Source: Anaerolineae bacterium
Lineage (GTDB): Bacteria; Chloroflexota; Anaerolineae; Anaerolineales; Villigracilaceae
DNA: 64,000 bases
Direction of reading: 5' to 3'
NCBI GenBank assembly: GCA_018645405.1
Contig: JABGOQ010000092.1
Coordinates: 1 to 64,000, forward strand
Shown here: positions 21,606-26,673 of the stretch, one piece after another
Layout of the letters: every line of letters starts with the position of its first letter
How positions within the stretch are numbered: the stretch's first letter is position 1
Notes under the pieces: model-generated
Told to the model about the DNA's origin: nothing
The model's input: only the letters and a program-made list of their open reading frames with translations
Databases searched by the model: none
Position numbers and translations under genes: made by a program

Positions 21606-22110
21606 AGTGTTCGTTAAAAAAAGCAGCCCTTCCAATAGATAAACAGGTATAAAAATCCTGTACCACTGTATTTTCCTTGTGACGCACGTTACCGCACGTT
21701 TTTCAGAAAAGACTTTCTTTGGAAGGGAGAAGGGAGTTTGTGATCAAACTCCAAAGGCATCCGCTGATCTATCCGATTTTCAGACCTCACCCCTACCCTC
21801 TCCTGGAAGGAAAGGGAAAGTCCTTAGCGCGTCCCTCGCGGGACGGAACCTTCACCTCGTAATCCAGATATTCTGGATCCAGCCGCTGGTTCTCCGTTAT
21901 TCAATTGTTAAACCCGATAAAGGGTAACCCCGCCAATGCCGTGTGTTGCTATGTTTTGAACCTGCTTTCACAGGATGTCTCTAACGGAGAGCTTCCGCCT
22001 TGGCTCTAGCCTATCGCGTAATCTCTACGAAATTGAGACCTTTTATTAATTGTTGGTACAAAACTTTGAGGCAACATCACCTGCCTAGCAGGGTTAAACC
22101 CAATATACCA
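21606..22110 (-). ncRNA. Candidate long structured non-coding RNA, class not recognised
   Basis: A 500-nt stretch with no credible protein gene, with many local stems on the minus strand: ATCCAGA/TCTGGAT (~21862-21878), GGAGTTTG/CAAACTCC (~21733-21752), CGTCCC/GGGACG (~21829-21844), CCTGTnnnnACAGG-like arms, and a long-range CCCTTCCA/TGGAAGGG pair. It ends at a T7 tract (21615-21621). TATATT lies near 22100. I looked for RNase P, tmRNA, 6S, SRP and T-box hallmarks and did not find them. A CCTCACCCCTACCCTCTCC repeat piece (21785-21803) is embedded. Strand is inferred from the T-tract and the flanking genes. Confidence 0.4.
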
Positions 22111-22185: not shown

Positions 22186-23526
22186 TTAGGGATAAACCCG
22201 CTTGATCGTCCTCGGGAAGGGTATCGTTTCACGGATATGATCTGTACCGCAAATCCAAGCTACAGTGCGCTCGATGCCCATCCCAAAACCGGAGTGAGGG
22301 ACAGAGCCGAATTTACGTAATTCAAGATACCATTTGAAAGACTCTTCGGGCAATCCGTGCTCATGAAGACGTTGCAGAAGTAAATCGGGATCAGACATAC
22401 GCTCGGAGCCGCCGATAATTTCTCCATAGCCTTCTGGGGCGAGCAAGTCTACGCTTTTGCAGGCTTCGGGTCTGCCGGGCATTGGTTCCATATAAAAGGC
22501 TTTGACTTGGGTCGGATAGCCGTAAACGAAAACGGGTTTCTCGAATTGTTGAGTTAGCACTGTTTCGTGTCTTGCGCCAAAATCCATGCCCCATTCGATT
22601 TCCAGGAATTCCTTTTCTTCGGGGTCTTCTGTTTCGGCTTGGATTTCTTTAATCATCTCTACCGCTTTATCATAAGAAATGCGCGGGAAAGAGCCTTCTA
22701 CTTTTTCTAGGGCAGAAATATCGCGTCCTAGAGATTCTAATTCGGGACGATTTTCTTTAAGCACGCGCTGAACGATATGCGAGACGAATTGTTCTTCGAC
22801 TTCCATTAATTCATCTAAATCACAAAAGGCGATTTCAGGTTCTACCATCCAAAATTCCGTTAAATGTCGGCGGGTTTTGGATTTTTCGGCGCGGAAGGTG
22901 GGACCAAAGCAATAAACTTTGCCGAAAGCAAAGATATTGGCTTCGTTATAGAGTTGGCCTGTTTGAGCAAGATAGGCTTTGCCTTCATCGAAGTATTCGG
23001 TTTCAAAGAGAGTCGTTGTTCCCTCGGCGGCGGCGGGAGTCAAAATCGGCGTATCCATCAGGGTGAAGCCATTATTGTCCAGCCATTCGCGGACGGCAGA
23101 GATGATGGTGGCGCGGATACGTAAAATTGCCCACTGACTCTGCATTCGTATCCAGAAATGTCTATTATCGAGAGCGAAATCTGCACCGTGTTCTTTGAGT
23201 GCCATCGGGTAATCGAGCGCAGCGGATTGCACCACGTTTAATGCCGAGACTCCCAGCTCAAATCCACCGGGCAAGCCCGGGGCACGGTCGTCTTTTCGTA
23301 TTGTCCCTGTAATAATTACGGATGATTCTTGCGGGATATGGCTAATCGTCTCGAAGGTTTCCTCATCCAAATCGCCCTTAAAAGCCACGCATTGGGCAAA
23401 TCCTGAACCATCTCGGATGAGCAAAAAGGCGAGCTTTCCCTTTCCTGTTCGTTTGTGAACCCAGCCCCGCAGGGTGACTTCTTCGCCCTCATGTTCGGCG
23501 ATATCGTGTATGCGAATGATATTCAT
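22186..23526 (-). CDS. asnS: Asparaginyl-tRNA synthetase
   Basis: 446 residues, class IIb. OB-fold anticodon domain (~15-100; [20 protein letters not shown]), motif 2 [21 protein letters not shown] region, and motif 3 [15 protein letters not shown] near the C-terminus. The loop composition fits AsnRS rather than AspRS. It charges tRNA-Asn directly. It follows aspS by 54 nt with a GGTG(T)GCAG/CTGCACC hairpin in the gap, and its ATG has a GAGGAAAA site. It shares the aspS promoter and attenuator in my reading. Confidence 0.94.
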
Positions 23527-23580: not shown

Positions 23581-25344
23581 TTATTTTACTTTAATATGCA
23601 GTTCGTTCAACTGTTTCTCTTCCGCCAGTGAGGGGGCATTGCCCATCACATCGCGGGCATTTTGGTTTTTCGGGAAGGCAATCACCTCACGGATATTGGG
23701 CGCATCGGCGAGGAGCATAACCAGCCGATCCATGCCGATTGCGATACCGCCGTGCGGGGGTGCGCCGTAGGTGAAGGCTTCGAGCATGTGGCCAAATCGC
23801 TCTTGCGCCACTTCGGGGTCAAGCCCAATTAGCGCAAAAACTTGTTCTTGTAACTCGCCATCGTGAATTCTAATCGAACCGCCGCCAATCTCATAATTGT
23901 TCAGCACAATATCATATTGTTGCCCACGCACCTTGCCCGTTTCCTTTCCGAGCATCGTGATGTCTTCGGGCATGGGGGATGTGAAAAGGTGATGGCTGGG
24001 ATCCCAGCGTTTTTCGTCTTCGTTCCAAAATACAAATGGGAAGTCGATCACCCAGCAGAATCCGAGTGTGTTGGGATTGCGGAGATTTAGCAAATCGCCG
24101 AGGTGGACGCGCAATTTGCCGAGCGATTCGAACGTGACCTCAGCTTGGTCGGCGACAAATAGCAGCAGATCGCCCTCAGAGGCTTCCATCTTCGAGAGAA
24201 TCGCGTCTTTAGCATCTTCCGTTAAGAACTTCGCAAAGGATGAGCGCATTTGTCCATCGCTAGTAAGAGCAATATAAGCCAGCCCTTTTGCGCCACCATT
24301 TTCTTTGACAAACTTGGTGAGTGCGTCAATTTTTTTGCGTGAATAATCGCCTAGGCCTGTTGCATTGATGCCGCGAATTGTTCCACCAGATTTGAGCGTG
24401 CCTTCAAAAACGCCAAAGCCGCACCCTTCGGCTAAATCGGTGATATCTACCAATTCTAAACCAAAACGAATGTCGGGATTATCTTTCCCGAAGCGTTCCA
24501 TTGCCTCATTATAAGTGATACGGGGCCAAGGCGATTGCAGCACTTTCTTTTCAGGTACAACTTTGGCGACCATTTTTGTAAACATCTTCTCGGCGAGTGC
24601 CATGACATCATCGCGCTCAACGAAAGACATTTCAAGGTCGAGTTGGGTAAATTCGGGCTGGCGGTCGCCGCGTTGGTCTTCATCGCGGAAACAGCGCGCA
24701 ATTTGGAAGTATCGCTCTACGCCTGCCACCATGAGCATCTGCTTCAATTGCTGAGGTGATTGTGGCAAAGCATAAAAATGCCCGGGATGAACACGTGAAG
24801 GTACGAGATAATCTCGCGCGCCTTCAGGCGTGGTTTTGAAGAGAATGGGCGTCTCAATATCAAGGAAACTTTGAGCATCCAGATAATTGCGAATAAATTT
24901 GACGGTATTATGACGTAACTCAAGATTTTTTCGCATCGAATCGCGACGCAAATCCAGGTAGCGATATTTCAAGCGGAGGTGCTCGTCTACTTCTTCATCT
25001 TTATTGATAAGAATAGGCAACATCTTTGATTTATTCAAAACTTTGACACTTTTTACCGCAATTTCGATCGCACCTGTATCTAAGTCAGGATTTTCTGCTC
25101 CTTCAATGCGTGGGCGAACTTCACCAGTCACTTGTATGACCCATTCAGAACGCGCTTCCTTGAGCGGAGCGAGCTCTTTATTGACTTCTGGGTTGCCAAC
25201 AACCTGCACGATGCCGAATCTATCGCGTAAATCTATGAAAGTCACACCGCCGTGATTTCTAAAATTATGTACCCAGCCAGCAAGGGTAACAGTCTCCCCG
25301 ACATGGGATGCGCGCAATTCTCCGCAAGTATGCGTTTTGTACAT
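23581..25344 (-). CDS. aspS: Aspartyl-tRNA synthetase, bacterial type
   Basis: 587 residues from the ATG at 25344, which follows CGGAGG. A longer in-frame reading to 25446 would run into the attenuator hairpin and is rejected. OB-fold (~10-105; [21 protein letters not shown]), motif 2 [16 protein letters not shown], the bacterial GAD insertion (~290-420) and motif 3 [13 protein letters not shown] are all present. It charges tRNA-Asp. With AsnRS encoded next, it is likely the discriminating type, though residues deciding this were not assessed. The leader carries an Asn/Asp-coding peptide and an intrinsic terminator (25445-25597). Confidence 0.96.
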
Positions 25345-25444: not shown

Positions 25445-25481
25445 AAAAAAAAACGCCCTTAGCTTTTTCAGCTTTGGGCGA
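25445..25481 (-). terminator. Leader terminator (attenuator) upstream of aspS-asnS
   Basis: On the minus strand CGCCC-AA-AGCT pairs with AGCT-AA-GGGCG (25454-25480) around a 5-nt loop and is followed by T9 (25445-25453). It lies 101 nt before the aspS ATG and 39 nt after the leader-peptide stop. TCGCCC at its 5' edge (25476-25481) is complementary to GGGCGA at the end of the leader peptide (25523-25528), giving a possible antiterminator. Confidence 0.85.
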
Positions 25482-25519
25482 AGAGTGTTCCGAAAATGAA
25501 TTCGTTACTGGGGCAAGTT

Positions 25520-25597
25520 CTATCGCCCGTCCCATCGCCTGATGGTCGAATTATCATTATCGTCATTATTATTGGGGGTGATTGTGTAAATCAACAT
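25520..25597 (-). CDS. Leader peptide with eight consecutive Asn/Asp codons
   Basis: ATG at 25595-25597 opens 25 codons ending in TAG at 25520-25522. Codons 9-16 (25550-25573) read AAT AAT AAT GAC GAT AAT GAT AAT, that is NNNDDNDN, and another GAC follows at codon 23. The next genes are aspartyl- and asparaginyl-tRNA synthetase, so the peptide matches the enzymes' own amino acids. A CCATC/GAUGG hairpin overlaps codons 18-22, and the terminator follows. This is the layout of ribosome-mediated attenuation: stalling on uncharged tRNA-Asn or tRNA-Asp would favour an alternative fold and read-through. There is no Shine-Dalgarno; TATAAT lies 7 nt before the ATG, implying a leaderless mRNA. The mechanism is inference; the codons and hairpin are seen directly. 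Confidence 0.82.
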   Translation of the reverse strand: MLIYTITPNNNDDNDNSTIRRWDGR

Positions 25598-25604
25598 GGG
25601 CGGT

Positions 25605-25610
25605 ATTATA
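25605..25610 (-). promoter_or_regulatory. Extended -10 promoter for the aspS-asnS leader
   Basis: TGCTATAAT on the minus strand is an extended -10 element. The -35 region (TTCTAT at about 25628) is poor and lies in a dispersed palindrome. Transcription should start within a base or two of the leader-peptide ATG. Confidence 0.6.
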
Positions 25611-25626
25611 GCACAACTATAAAAAG

Positions 25627-25732
25627 AATAGAACACGGATTTTACGATTTAGCGGATTCGCGCTGATTTTAAAAACTTTTTTTCGCTTTTGTCCGCGCAA
25701 ATCTGTCAAATCTGCTAAATCGGTGTTCTATT
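25627..25732. repeat. Dispersed palindromic repeat, family A copy 1
   Basis: AATAGAACAC (25627-25636) and its complement (25723-25732) bound an imperfect palindrome made of CGGATTT-type units. Related copies are at 49754-49815, 51567-51671 and, shorter, 63282-63320. Confidence 0.75.
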
Positions 25733-25737
25733 TGGGT

Positions 25738-26547
25738 TTAGACTCTTTCCACCGGCATAATCAAGCAATTCGGACCACCCATCCCTTTGGCAAATTCTTC
25801 CAAATCTAGCACGTGGACTTTCATGCCGTGCTCTCGAAGTTTTTTGATAACGATTTTGTTAGATGCGTTGACGAGCACATTATTATCGCCGAGACAAATC
25901 ATATTTGCGGTAGTGTCGCCGCCGCACTCAATTTCTACTCTTTTGAAGCCTGCGACCATTTCTTCTGAAACGTAATTCGGACATTAGAGTAGGGTATCGG
26001 GGGCGATGGTGAGGAGAACTTTATCAAGGTGAAGGATATTGTCGGGGAGGGGGATGATGCGCATTTCGTAGCCTATCGGCTCTAAAATAGCAGAGAGTTG
26101 GCGAATTCCTTCGGGGTTGGTGCGGATGGATTGCCCAACGAATGCTACGTCTCCAGCGAGGACGACATCGCCGCCGTCTACTGTGCCAGGCGAGGAGATG
26201 TATCCAGCGCGTGGCAAGCCTAAATTTGAGAGCGTTTCGCTCATCCAATCGCCCTCATCAAGTCTGGATTCGATTCCCAAGCGTAGATGAATGAATCCCT
26301 CTGGGGTCATCACGGCAGTATCCCGTGTGAAAACAGAATTGGGATGCCCATCCAGTTCGGGGACGTCAATCACTTCACTGCCGAAATCTTCCAACGCAGA
26401 TTTGAGTGAATTATGTTGTGCAATGGCAATATTTGGATTTCCCAAGTCGCCAAGATTGTGGGTTGGGTCATTTTTGCCAAGCGCGTATTCTTTGCGTGGT
26501 GTGCAGACGATGACGCGTGTGAGACGATTTCCTTCGTTTTTGAGCAT
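25738..26547 (-). pseudogene. Dimethylarginine dimethylaminohydrolase/arginine deiminase-like gene with an in-frame TAA
   Basis: From the ATG at 26547 (preceded by AAGGAG) the frame is coding for 187 residues, hits TAA at 25984-25986, and continues in the same frame for another 81 residues to 25738. The two parts together make one amidinotransferase-fold protein: FTRD and GGD motifs, HLDKVL with the catalytic His in part one, and the nucleophile Cys in GGPNCLIMP in part two. Loss of part two would remove the catalytic Cys. CPNYVSEE follows the stop directly, so one substitution (for example from a Tyr codon) explains it. Either a recent pseudogene, read-through, or an assembly error. The upstream in-frame extension to 26601 is not needed. 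Confidence 0.85.
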
Positions 26548-26673
26548 GGTTGGTTCTCCTTGGTGAATATTGCCTCTGCGAGAAGCGTATTCTTGCGACA
26601 TGGTGGTCTCCCGGGCTATCTGGGAGATTGCTTCTCTAGCGAGATGCTATGCGATCGGCGAGAAAGCTACCTC

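Follow-up and report, generated by a model that had tools for sequence, protein, structure and literature searches.

The aspS-asnS locus

The window considered here is the whole 64,000-nt stretch of DNA analyzed, from an Anaerolineae bacterium. On its minus strand, two aminoacyl-tRNA synthetase genes lie in tandem: aspS (23581–25344), encoding a bacterial-type aspartyl-tRNA synthetase (AspRS; 826 bits for NF001750, with a cut-off of 443), and asnS (22186–23526), encoding an asparaginyl-tRNA synthetase (AsnRS; 539 bits for NF003037, with a cut-off of 414). These scores bear out the gene identities proposed in the initial annotation. The intergenic gap between the two genes is 54 bases, and aspS begins at an ATG (25344) with its own Shine-Dalgarno sequence, GGAGG.

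The region 5′ of aspS is compactly organized on the same strand. An extended −10 promoter element, TGCTATAAT (25605–25613), contains the sequence TATAAT (25610–25605). It is followed by an ORF of 25 codons plus a TAG stop codon (25520–25597, with the ATG at 25597). The encoded leader peptide, MLIYTITPNNNDDNDNSTIRRWDGR, is conserved in relatives and includes eight consecutive candidate control codons, Asn-Asn-Asn-Asp-Asp-Asn-Asp-Asn (25550–25573). An intrinsic terminator then separates the leader ORF from the synthetase genes, with a hairpin (25454–25480; −13.8 kcal/mol) of sequence CGCCC-AA-AGCT-GAAAA-AGCT-AA-GGGCG and a T9 tract (25445–25453). The initial annotation had described both the leader ORF and the terminator, and every coordinate was confirmed. 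A simple terminator scan of the window did not call this hairpin, because it has an internal loop.

Several other features flank the locus. A 6S RNA (RF00013, 58 bits; 21923–22097, minus strand) is located directly 3′ of asnS on the same strand. Upstream of the promoter, positions 25630–25735 contain a dispersed short repeat of the AAATCTGCTAAATC / GCGGATTTAGC type; this region has 16 more weak matches elsewhere in the genome, with two pairs of those lying within the same contig. Further upstream is a dimethylargininase-like gene (25740–26601, minus strand) that scores 95.7 bits for NF045660, under the 340-bit cut-off. It has a stop codon at 25984, and the expected end residues, FAKGMGGPNCLIMPVERV, are visible in another frame at ~25740–25790. 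This suggests that the gene carries a frameshift, i.e., that it is either a pseudogene or affected by an assembly error.

Distribution of the leader

We examined the 450 bases 5′ of aspS at 58 loci, drawn from relatives in the same genus, family, and order. At 46 of the 58, the promoter, a short ORF bearing Asn/Asp codons, and a CGCCC...GGGCG terminator are all retained, which is the conservation that the initial annotation had proposed looking for. The remaining relatives (~12 of 58) have no recognizable leader or terminator. Leader peptides in the order are 25–30 amino acids long. In most relatives, TATAAT and the leader are spaced as in the window, and the T tract is interrupted in several (e.g., ATTTTGCTTT).

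A wider search used R1, an RNA model built for the switch. R1 matched 120 of 301 sampled genomes of the window’s order (E ≤ 0.01). The further loci found in this way again have Asn/Asp leaders, and AspS is encoded downstream at 13 of the 14 that were read. Among 346 genomes sampled from the class and 301 from the phylum, all matches at E ≤ 1e-4 fall inside the window’s family, and no such leader was found at AspRS loci of Firmicutes, Dehalococcoidia, and others. Within the window’s own genome, the model found no second copy below an E value of 0.9.

Two further arrangements were observed among relatives. At three loci (L010, L012, and L014), inverted repeats such as CCGCCAAGACGCGGAG...CTTGGCGTCTTGGCGG occupy the stretch from the terminator to the Shine-Dalgarno sequence; the repeats differ in each genome, and mobile palindromic repeats therefore seem to insert just past the attenuator. 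Genome G022 has two copies of aspS located 4 kb apart (L051 and L060), each preceded by a separate Asn/Asp leader and terminator, and gatB lies between them.

The leader codons are under constraint

The concentration of Asn and Asp codons is far above that of shuffled sequence. In the region upstream of aspS in the window, none of 3000 dinucleotide shuffles gave 7 Asn/Asp residues in 10, and the observed number is 8. Among relatives, 28 of 46 leaders hold at least 7 Asn/Asp residues in 10, compared to 0 of 2760 dinucleotide shuffles. Asn/Asp is the top-scoring amino-acid pair among the pairs tested, with Asn making up 19.1% and Asp 8.9% of leader residues.

The bias is specific to one reading frame. 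Across the 46 leaders, the leader frame contains 359 RAY codons (AAY/GAY) versus 35 RAR codons (AAR/GAR); the RAY/RAR counts for the other two frames are 42/37 and 58/66. Neither of these other frames is open, with 55 and 163 stops, respectively. Differences between leaders number 683, 372, and 613 at codon positions 1, 2, and 3, such that position 2 is the least variable; Asn and Asp codons swap at position 1, and T and C at position 3. The RAY bias in a single frame, together with this position pattern, indicates constraint on the codon that is read rather than on the DNA. The ORF’s end behaves differently: this stretch (GTTGGGCGAAGC, encoding “VGRS” and corresponding to arm 2 of the switch described below) is near-invariant at the nucleotide level within the family, as expected of an RNA pairing strand.

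Mutually exclusive RNA structures

The transcript of the leader region is predicted to form the alternative helices expected of an attenuator, as the initial annotation had anticipated. Arm 1 (CCAUC, 25541–25545), identified from covariation within the genus, would pair with arm 2 in an anti-antiterminator hairpin (1:2). Arm 2 (GGCGAUGGG, 25531–25539) is the 5′ strand of the antiterminator, as judged by pairing probability. Arm 3 (CUCUUCGCCC, 25476–25485) is assigned from folding and covariation; it serves both as the 3′ strand of the antiterminator (2:3) and, through its CGCCC sequence, as the 5′ strand of the terminator (3:4). The 2:3 and 3:4 helices are therefore mutually exclusive.

The favored antiterminator in the window’s genus pairs GGCGATGGG (25539–25531) with CTCTTCGCC (25485–25477; CUCUUCGCC in the RNA), with a predicted pairing probability of 0.84–0.99 in the window when a ribosome sits on the Asn/Asp run. 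The initial annotation had instead pointed to pairing between GGGCGA at the end of the ORF (25528–25523) and TCGCCC (25481–25476). This complementarity is real, but GGGCGA is not the preferred antiterminator strand: although it is the choice for a best single helix in the window’s genus, its pairing probability in that role is near zero. GGGCGA pairs mainly with the nearby TTGCCC (UUGCCC in the RNA, 25516–25511), giving a local hairpin, GGGCGA-UAGAAC-UUGCCC (25511–25528), within the antiterminator loop. Relatives point the same way. In G008, GGGCGA is changed to GGGCAA, and in G007 the corresponding strands are GGGUAGC/GCUGCCU; in both cases, the local hairpin is kept but the helix with TCGCCC is not.

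Covariation supports all three helices. The sequences are related, and the shuffle counts given here and below are descriptive rather than probabilities: the 3:4 terminator is 92.2% paired with 13 double-changed cells (0 of 500 shuffles), and the 2:3 antiterminator is 89.6% paired, versus 87.8 ± 0.5 when shuffled, with 9 double-changed cells (0 of 500). Within the family, 2:3 is too conserved for covariation, and the signal comes from the wider order. The score for leaders against their own terminator arm was 22.7, higher than for all 5000 partner permutations (20.55 ± 0.49), with shuffled leaders at 12.4. In the window’s genus, the 1:2 hairpin appears as CCAUC/GAUGG, CCAAC/GUUGG, and CCGAC/GUCGG, and is 100% paired with 5 double-changed cells (1 of 500 shuffles). 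Across the wider family, arm 1 consists of the final Asn/Asp codons (GACGAU/AUCGUU, GACGCC/GGCGUU, and AAUGAC/GUCGUU); here, 1:2 is 89.4% paired, versus 81.6 ± 1.2 when shuffled, with 20 double-changed cells (0 of 500), and slid controls are 17–58% paired. The 1:2 hairpin is not evident in some outlying genera, and the mean folding z-score of the 1:2 region, −0.22, comes from a stretch that cut off arm 1.

We folded leader RNAs of relatives with a ribosome mask, the ribosome being assumed to cover 12 nt beyond the first A-site base. The median probability of 2:3 was 0.97 with the ribosome stalled mid-run and 0 with the ribosome at the stop codon, and the median probability of the terminator at the stop codon was 0.97. 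The 2:3 helix was not predicted for one member of the window’s genus (G001), nor for a few other relatives. In full-length equilibrium folds within the window’s genus, the terminator wins; function would therefore need kinetic, co-transcriptional folding.

The spacing of the elements matches the dimensions of a ribosome. Counted from the first base of the final Asn/Asp codon, arm 2 typically begins at 11–13 nt (at 13 nt in the window, where this codon is Asn), which is where the front of a ribosome would lie with that codon in its A site. Arm 2 typically ends 8–12 nt before the stop codon, and would therefore be covered by a ribosome positioned there. At the other end of the leader, the predicted transcription start site precedes the ATG by only a few bases in the window, and by 0–6 nt in 34 of 46 cases. 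The sensor peptide may therefore be translated from a leaderless transcript, as judged from promoter matches.

The leader is associated with aspS

The initial annotation had linked the attenuator to aspS and asnS jointly. Conservation, covariation, and ribosome geometry all strongly support an Asn/Asp leader and attenuator at this position, but the link to the gene pair needs correcting. In 12 leader-bearing genomes, there is no AsnRS above the protein-family cut-off, and the leader still contains Asn codons. Conversely, no Asn/Asp leader was found at asnS genes detached from aspS. It is therefore aspS that the leader accompanies, and not the gene pair. Detached gatB genes likewise have no Asn/Asp leader that we could find; GatB is present in most genomes.

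The type of AspRS offers a possible reason for the Asn codons. The window’s AspRS has the anticodon-domain residue signature of nondiscriminating enzymes: in an alignment, it has His31 and Gly82, like the solved Asp/Asn-specific chains 4wj3 and 4rmf, and unlike the discriminating 1efw. Both residues are invariant in AspRS of relatives with and without AsnRS. We take His31/Gly82 to be a mark of nondiscriminating AspRS. Such an enzyme makes Asp-tRNA(Asn), which an amidotransferase converts to Asn-tRNA(Asn) (PMC6523644). We infer that the Asn codons fit a putative nondiscriminating AspRS that feeds both tRNAs, such that both codons would report AspRS output.

A codon swap at asnA

The RNA model also finds copies of the attenuator 5′ of asnA, which encodes asparagine synthetase A. 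The attenuator is present at all seven asnA genes found within the family, and the leaders are Asn-only or Asn-dominated (MTIIHIANNNNNNNNNRLNAVGRSLPG, MFDYSFANFNNNNNNNNAVLRGVGRSASNLQT, MKTSATQFACLNNNNNAPMGVGRSVSGWTT, MFISSFANVSNNNNNGPAGTLGEARRI, and MKQMHFANNPNTNNNRPPAVGRSLHR). Four of the seven have no Asp codons, and two keep 2–3. Six asnA leaders together have 44 Asn and 6 Asp codons, compared to 104 and 44 for aspS leaders (Fisher p = 0.014, not corrected for relatedness). In one genome (G335, locus L221), a single contig carries, in order, an Asn leader, asnA, an Asn/Asp leader, and aspS, with the asnA leader lacking Asp. No leader was found at asnA in three genomes outside the family. 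No other evidence here argues as strongly for the codons being the signal as this apparent swap on a shared scaffold.

Proposed mechanism and alternative explanations

By its predicted anatomy, the element has all the sequence-testable features of trp-type attenuators: a short leader ORF with codons for the amino acids of the downstream gene, a terminator between leader and gene, a 2:3 helix exclusive of 3:4 with covariation, a 1:2 hairpin sequestering arm 2, and ribosome spacing suited to freeing or covering arm 2. Direct support comes from sequence, conservation, coding constraint, alternative helices, covariation, geometry, and the matching of codons to target genes; ribosome stalling on uncharged tRNA and the readthrough of the terminator are what we infer. 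Very probably, then, the element is a trp-type, ribosome-mediated transcription attenuator of aspS (here, of aspS-asnS) that is induced by low levels of charged Asn- or Asp-tRNA.

Such an attenuator would work as follows. RNA polymerase transcribes the leader, with a ribosome translating the peptide behind it. When Asn-tRNA and Asp-tRNA are both well charged, the ribosome would clear the run, reach the stop codon, and cover arm 2, leaving arm 3 to pair with arm 4 and terminate transcription. When either tRNA is poorly charged, the ribosome would stall in the run, covering arm 1 and freeing arm 2 to pair with arm 3; the terminator would not form, and the synthetase genes would be transcribed. 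With no translating ribosome, 1:2 would form and transcription would terminate. Asn codons would suit an aspS leader, since a nondiscriminating-type AspRS together with GatCAB would supply Asn-tRNA too. We consider it an even proposition that this is a clade-wide attenuator family reading both tRNA products of one enzyme, with Asp codons reporting Asp-tRNA(Asp), Asn codons reporting the Asn-tRNA made by nondiscriminating AspRS and GatCAB, and a duplicated, Asn-only copy having been recruited to asnA.

The main competing explanation, which we regard as rather unlikely, is that the attenuator senses mainly Asn-tRNA, the Asp codons being tolerated near-synonyms that carry no second signal. There are indeed roughly twice as many Asn as Asp codons, and some leaders have a single Asp codon (nine Asn and one Asp in G044; six and one in G011). 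However, Asp is enriched too, at least one Asp codon is kept in almost every aspS leader, and Asp is lost from asnA leaders, as expected if the Asp codons are informative at aspS.

Explanations that dispense with a leader-peptide attenuator are much harder to reconcile with the data. The ORF might encode a conserved small functional protein, with the terminator being an ordinary one or belonging to an upstream transcript. This is very improbable: the family does share a C-terminal motif, VGRS.AG, but it overlaps arm 2 and is near-invariant in nucleotides, other genera keep the same RNA with other residues, the N-terminal residues vary freely, and the promoter is directly 5′ of the ORF. Even less plausible is a riboswitch that binds tRNA or a metabolite, whether a T-box or another kind, which is how aspS/asnS are usually controlled in Firmicutes. 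Some Firmicutes do regulate aspS or asnS through T-boxes, and there are three T-boxes in Dehalococcoides, where they serve different genes (PMC2494555). Yet the terminated leader transcript of ~155 nt is already filled by the ORF and the switch, and Rfam scans of the leader, at gathering thresholds and permissively to E = 10, gave nothing relevant: there were three low-scoring chance matches, and the T-box model did not recognize the leader. Least credible of all is that the leader is a low-complexity, A/T-rich spacer and the run a DNA repeat. The AAT repeats in the window resemble a microsatellite, but AAT, AAC, GAT, and GAC interchange in one frame only, almost never giving AAA, AAG, GAA, or GAG, a frame-specific RAY bias that contradicts a repeat, and the run is conserved across the order.

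Relationship to known systems

Leaders with codons for two or more amino acids are known: the thr leader contains Thr and Ile codons, and the ilv leader contains Ile, Val, and Leu codons. Leader-peptide attenuation of an aminoacyl-tRNA synthetase gene is known from E. coli pheST. The enterobacterial trp, his, leu, thr, and ilvGMEDA attenuators share with the element described here the runs of regulated amino acids, the exclusive 1:2/2:3/3:4 helices, and the intrinsic terminator; they differ from it in that it has Asn/Asp codons, precedes a synthetase gene, occurs in Chloroflexota, and apparently begins its leader ORF at, or close to, the transcript’s 5′ end. pheST shares attenuation of a synthetase gene by a leader peptide, but involves one amino acid (Phe) and one tRNA, and is unrelated in sequence and lineage.

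Other systems reach similar targets by different means. In Clostridium acetobutylicum, a two-codon T-box is described as controlling an operon for tRNA-dependent transamidation (Saad et al. 2013, in PMC4052509). As summarized there, it too senses two tRNAs (Asn and Glu) with one leader and controls Asn-tRNA supply; it differs in binding tRNA directly to RNA with no leader peptide, and in the pair being Asn/Glu rather than Asn/Asp. The aspS/asnS T-boxes of Firmicutes place the same genes under charging-responsive transcription control, with a different RNA and mechanism (PMC2494555). A 5′-UTR element of Shewanella aspS, listed as a “tRNA synthetase leader,” is also a computationally predicted cis-regulatory RNA candidate with a terminator, but it is from another phylum, and its entry describes no Asn/Asp leader peptide (PMC2659441). 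The initial annotation knew of no described attenuator of this dual type for aspS-asnS. In agreement, our search of Rfam and open-access papers found no Asn/Asp leader-peptide attenuator, nor any such attenuator in Anaerolineae. The proposed mechanism is classical, while the Asn/Asp pair, the gene, and the bacterial group appear undescribed.

The proposed attenuator would extend ribosome-mediated attenuation to Asn and Asp, to this synthetase gene, and to a phylum, Chloroflexota, for which there are hardly any descriptions of amino-acid-dependent control. The naturally swapped codon runs, with Asn and Asp at aspS, Asn only or predominantly at asnA, and the two adjacent in one genome, make the matching of codons to targets directly testable. 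If the attenuator family does read both tRNA products of AspRS, it would be without precedent as a leader-peptide sensor of Asn/Asp and of indirect aminoacylation, with a sensor peptide that has a leaderless start. That Asn codons are retained in genomes lacking AsnRS may offer a way to study how cells keep track of the indirect pathway to Asn-tRNA.
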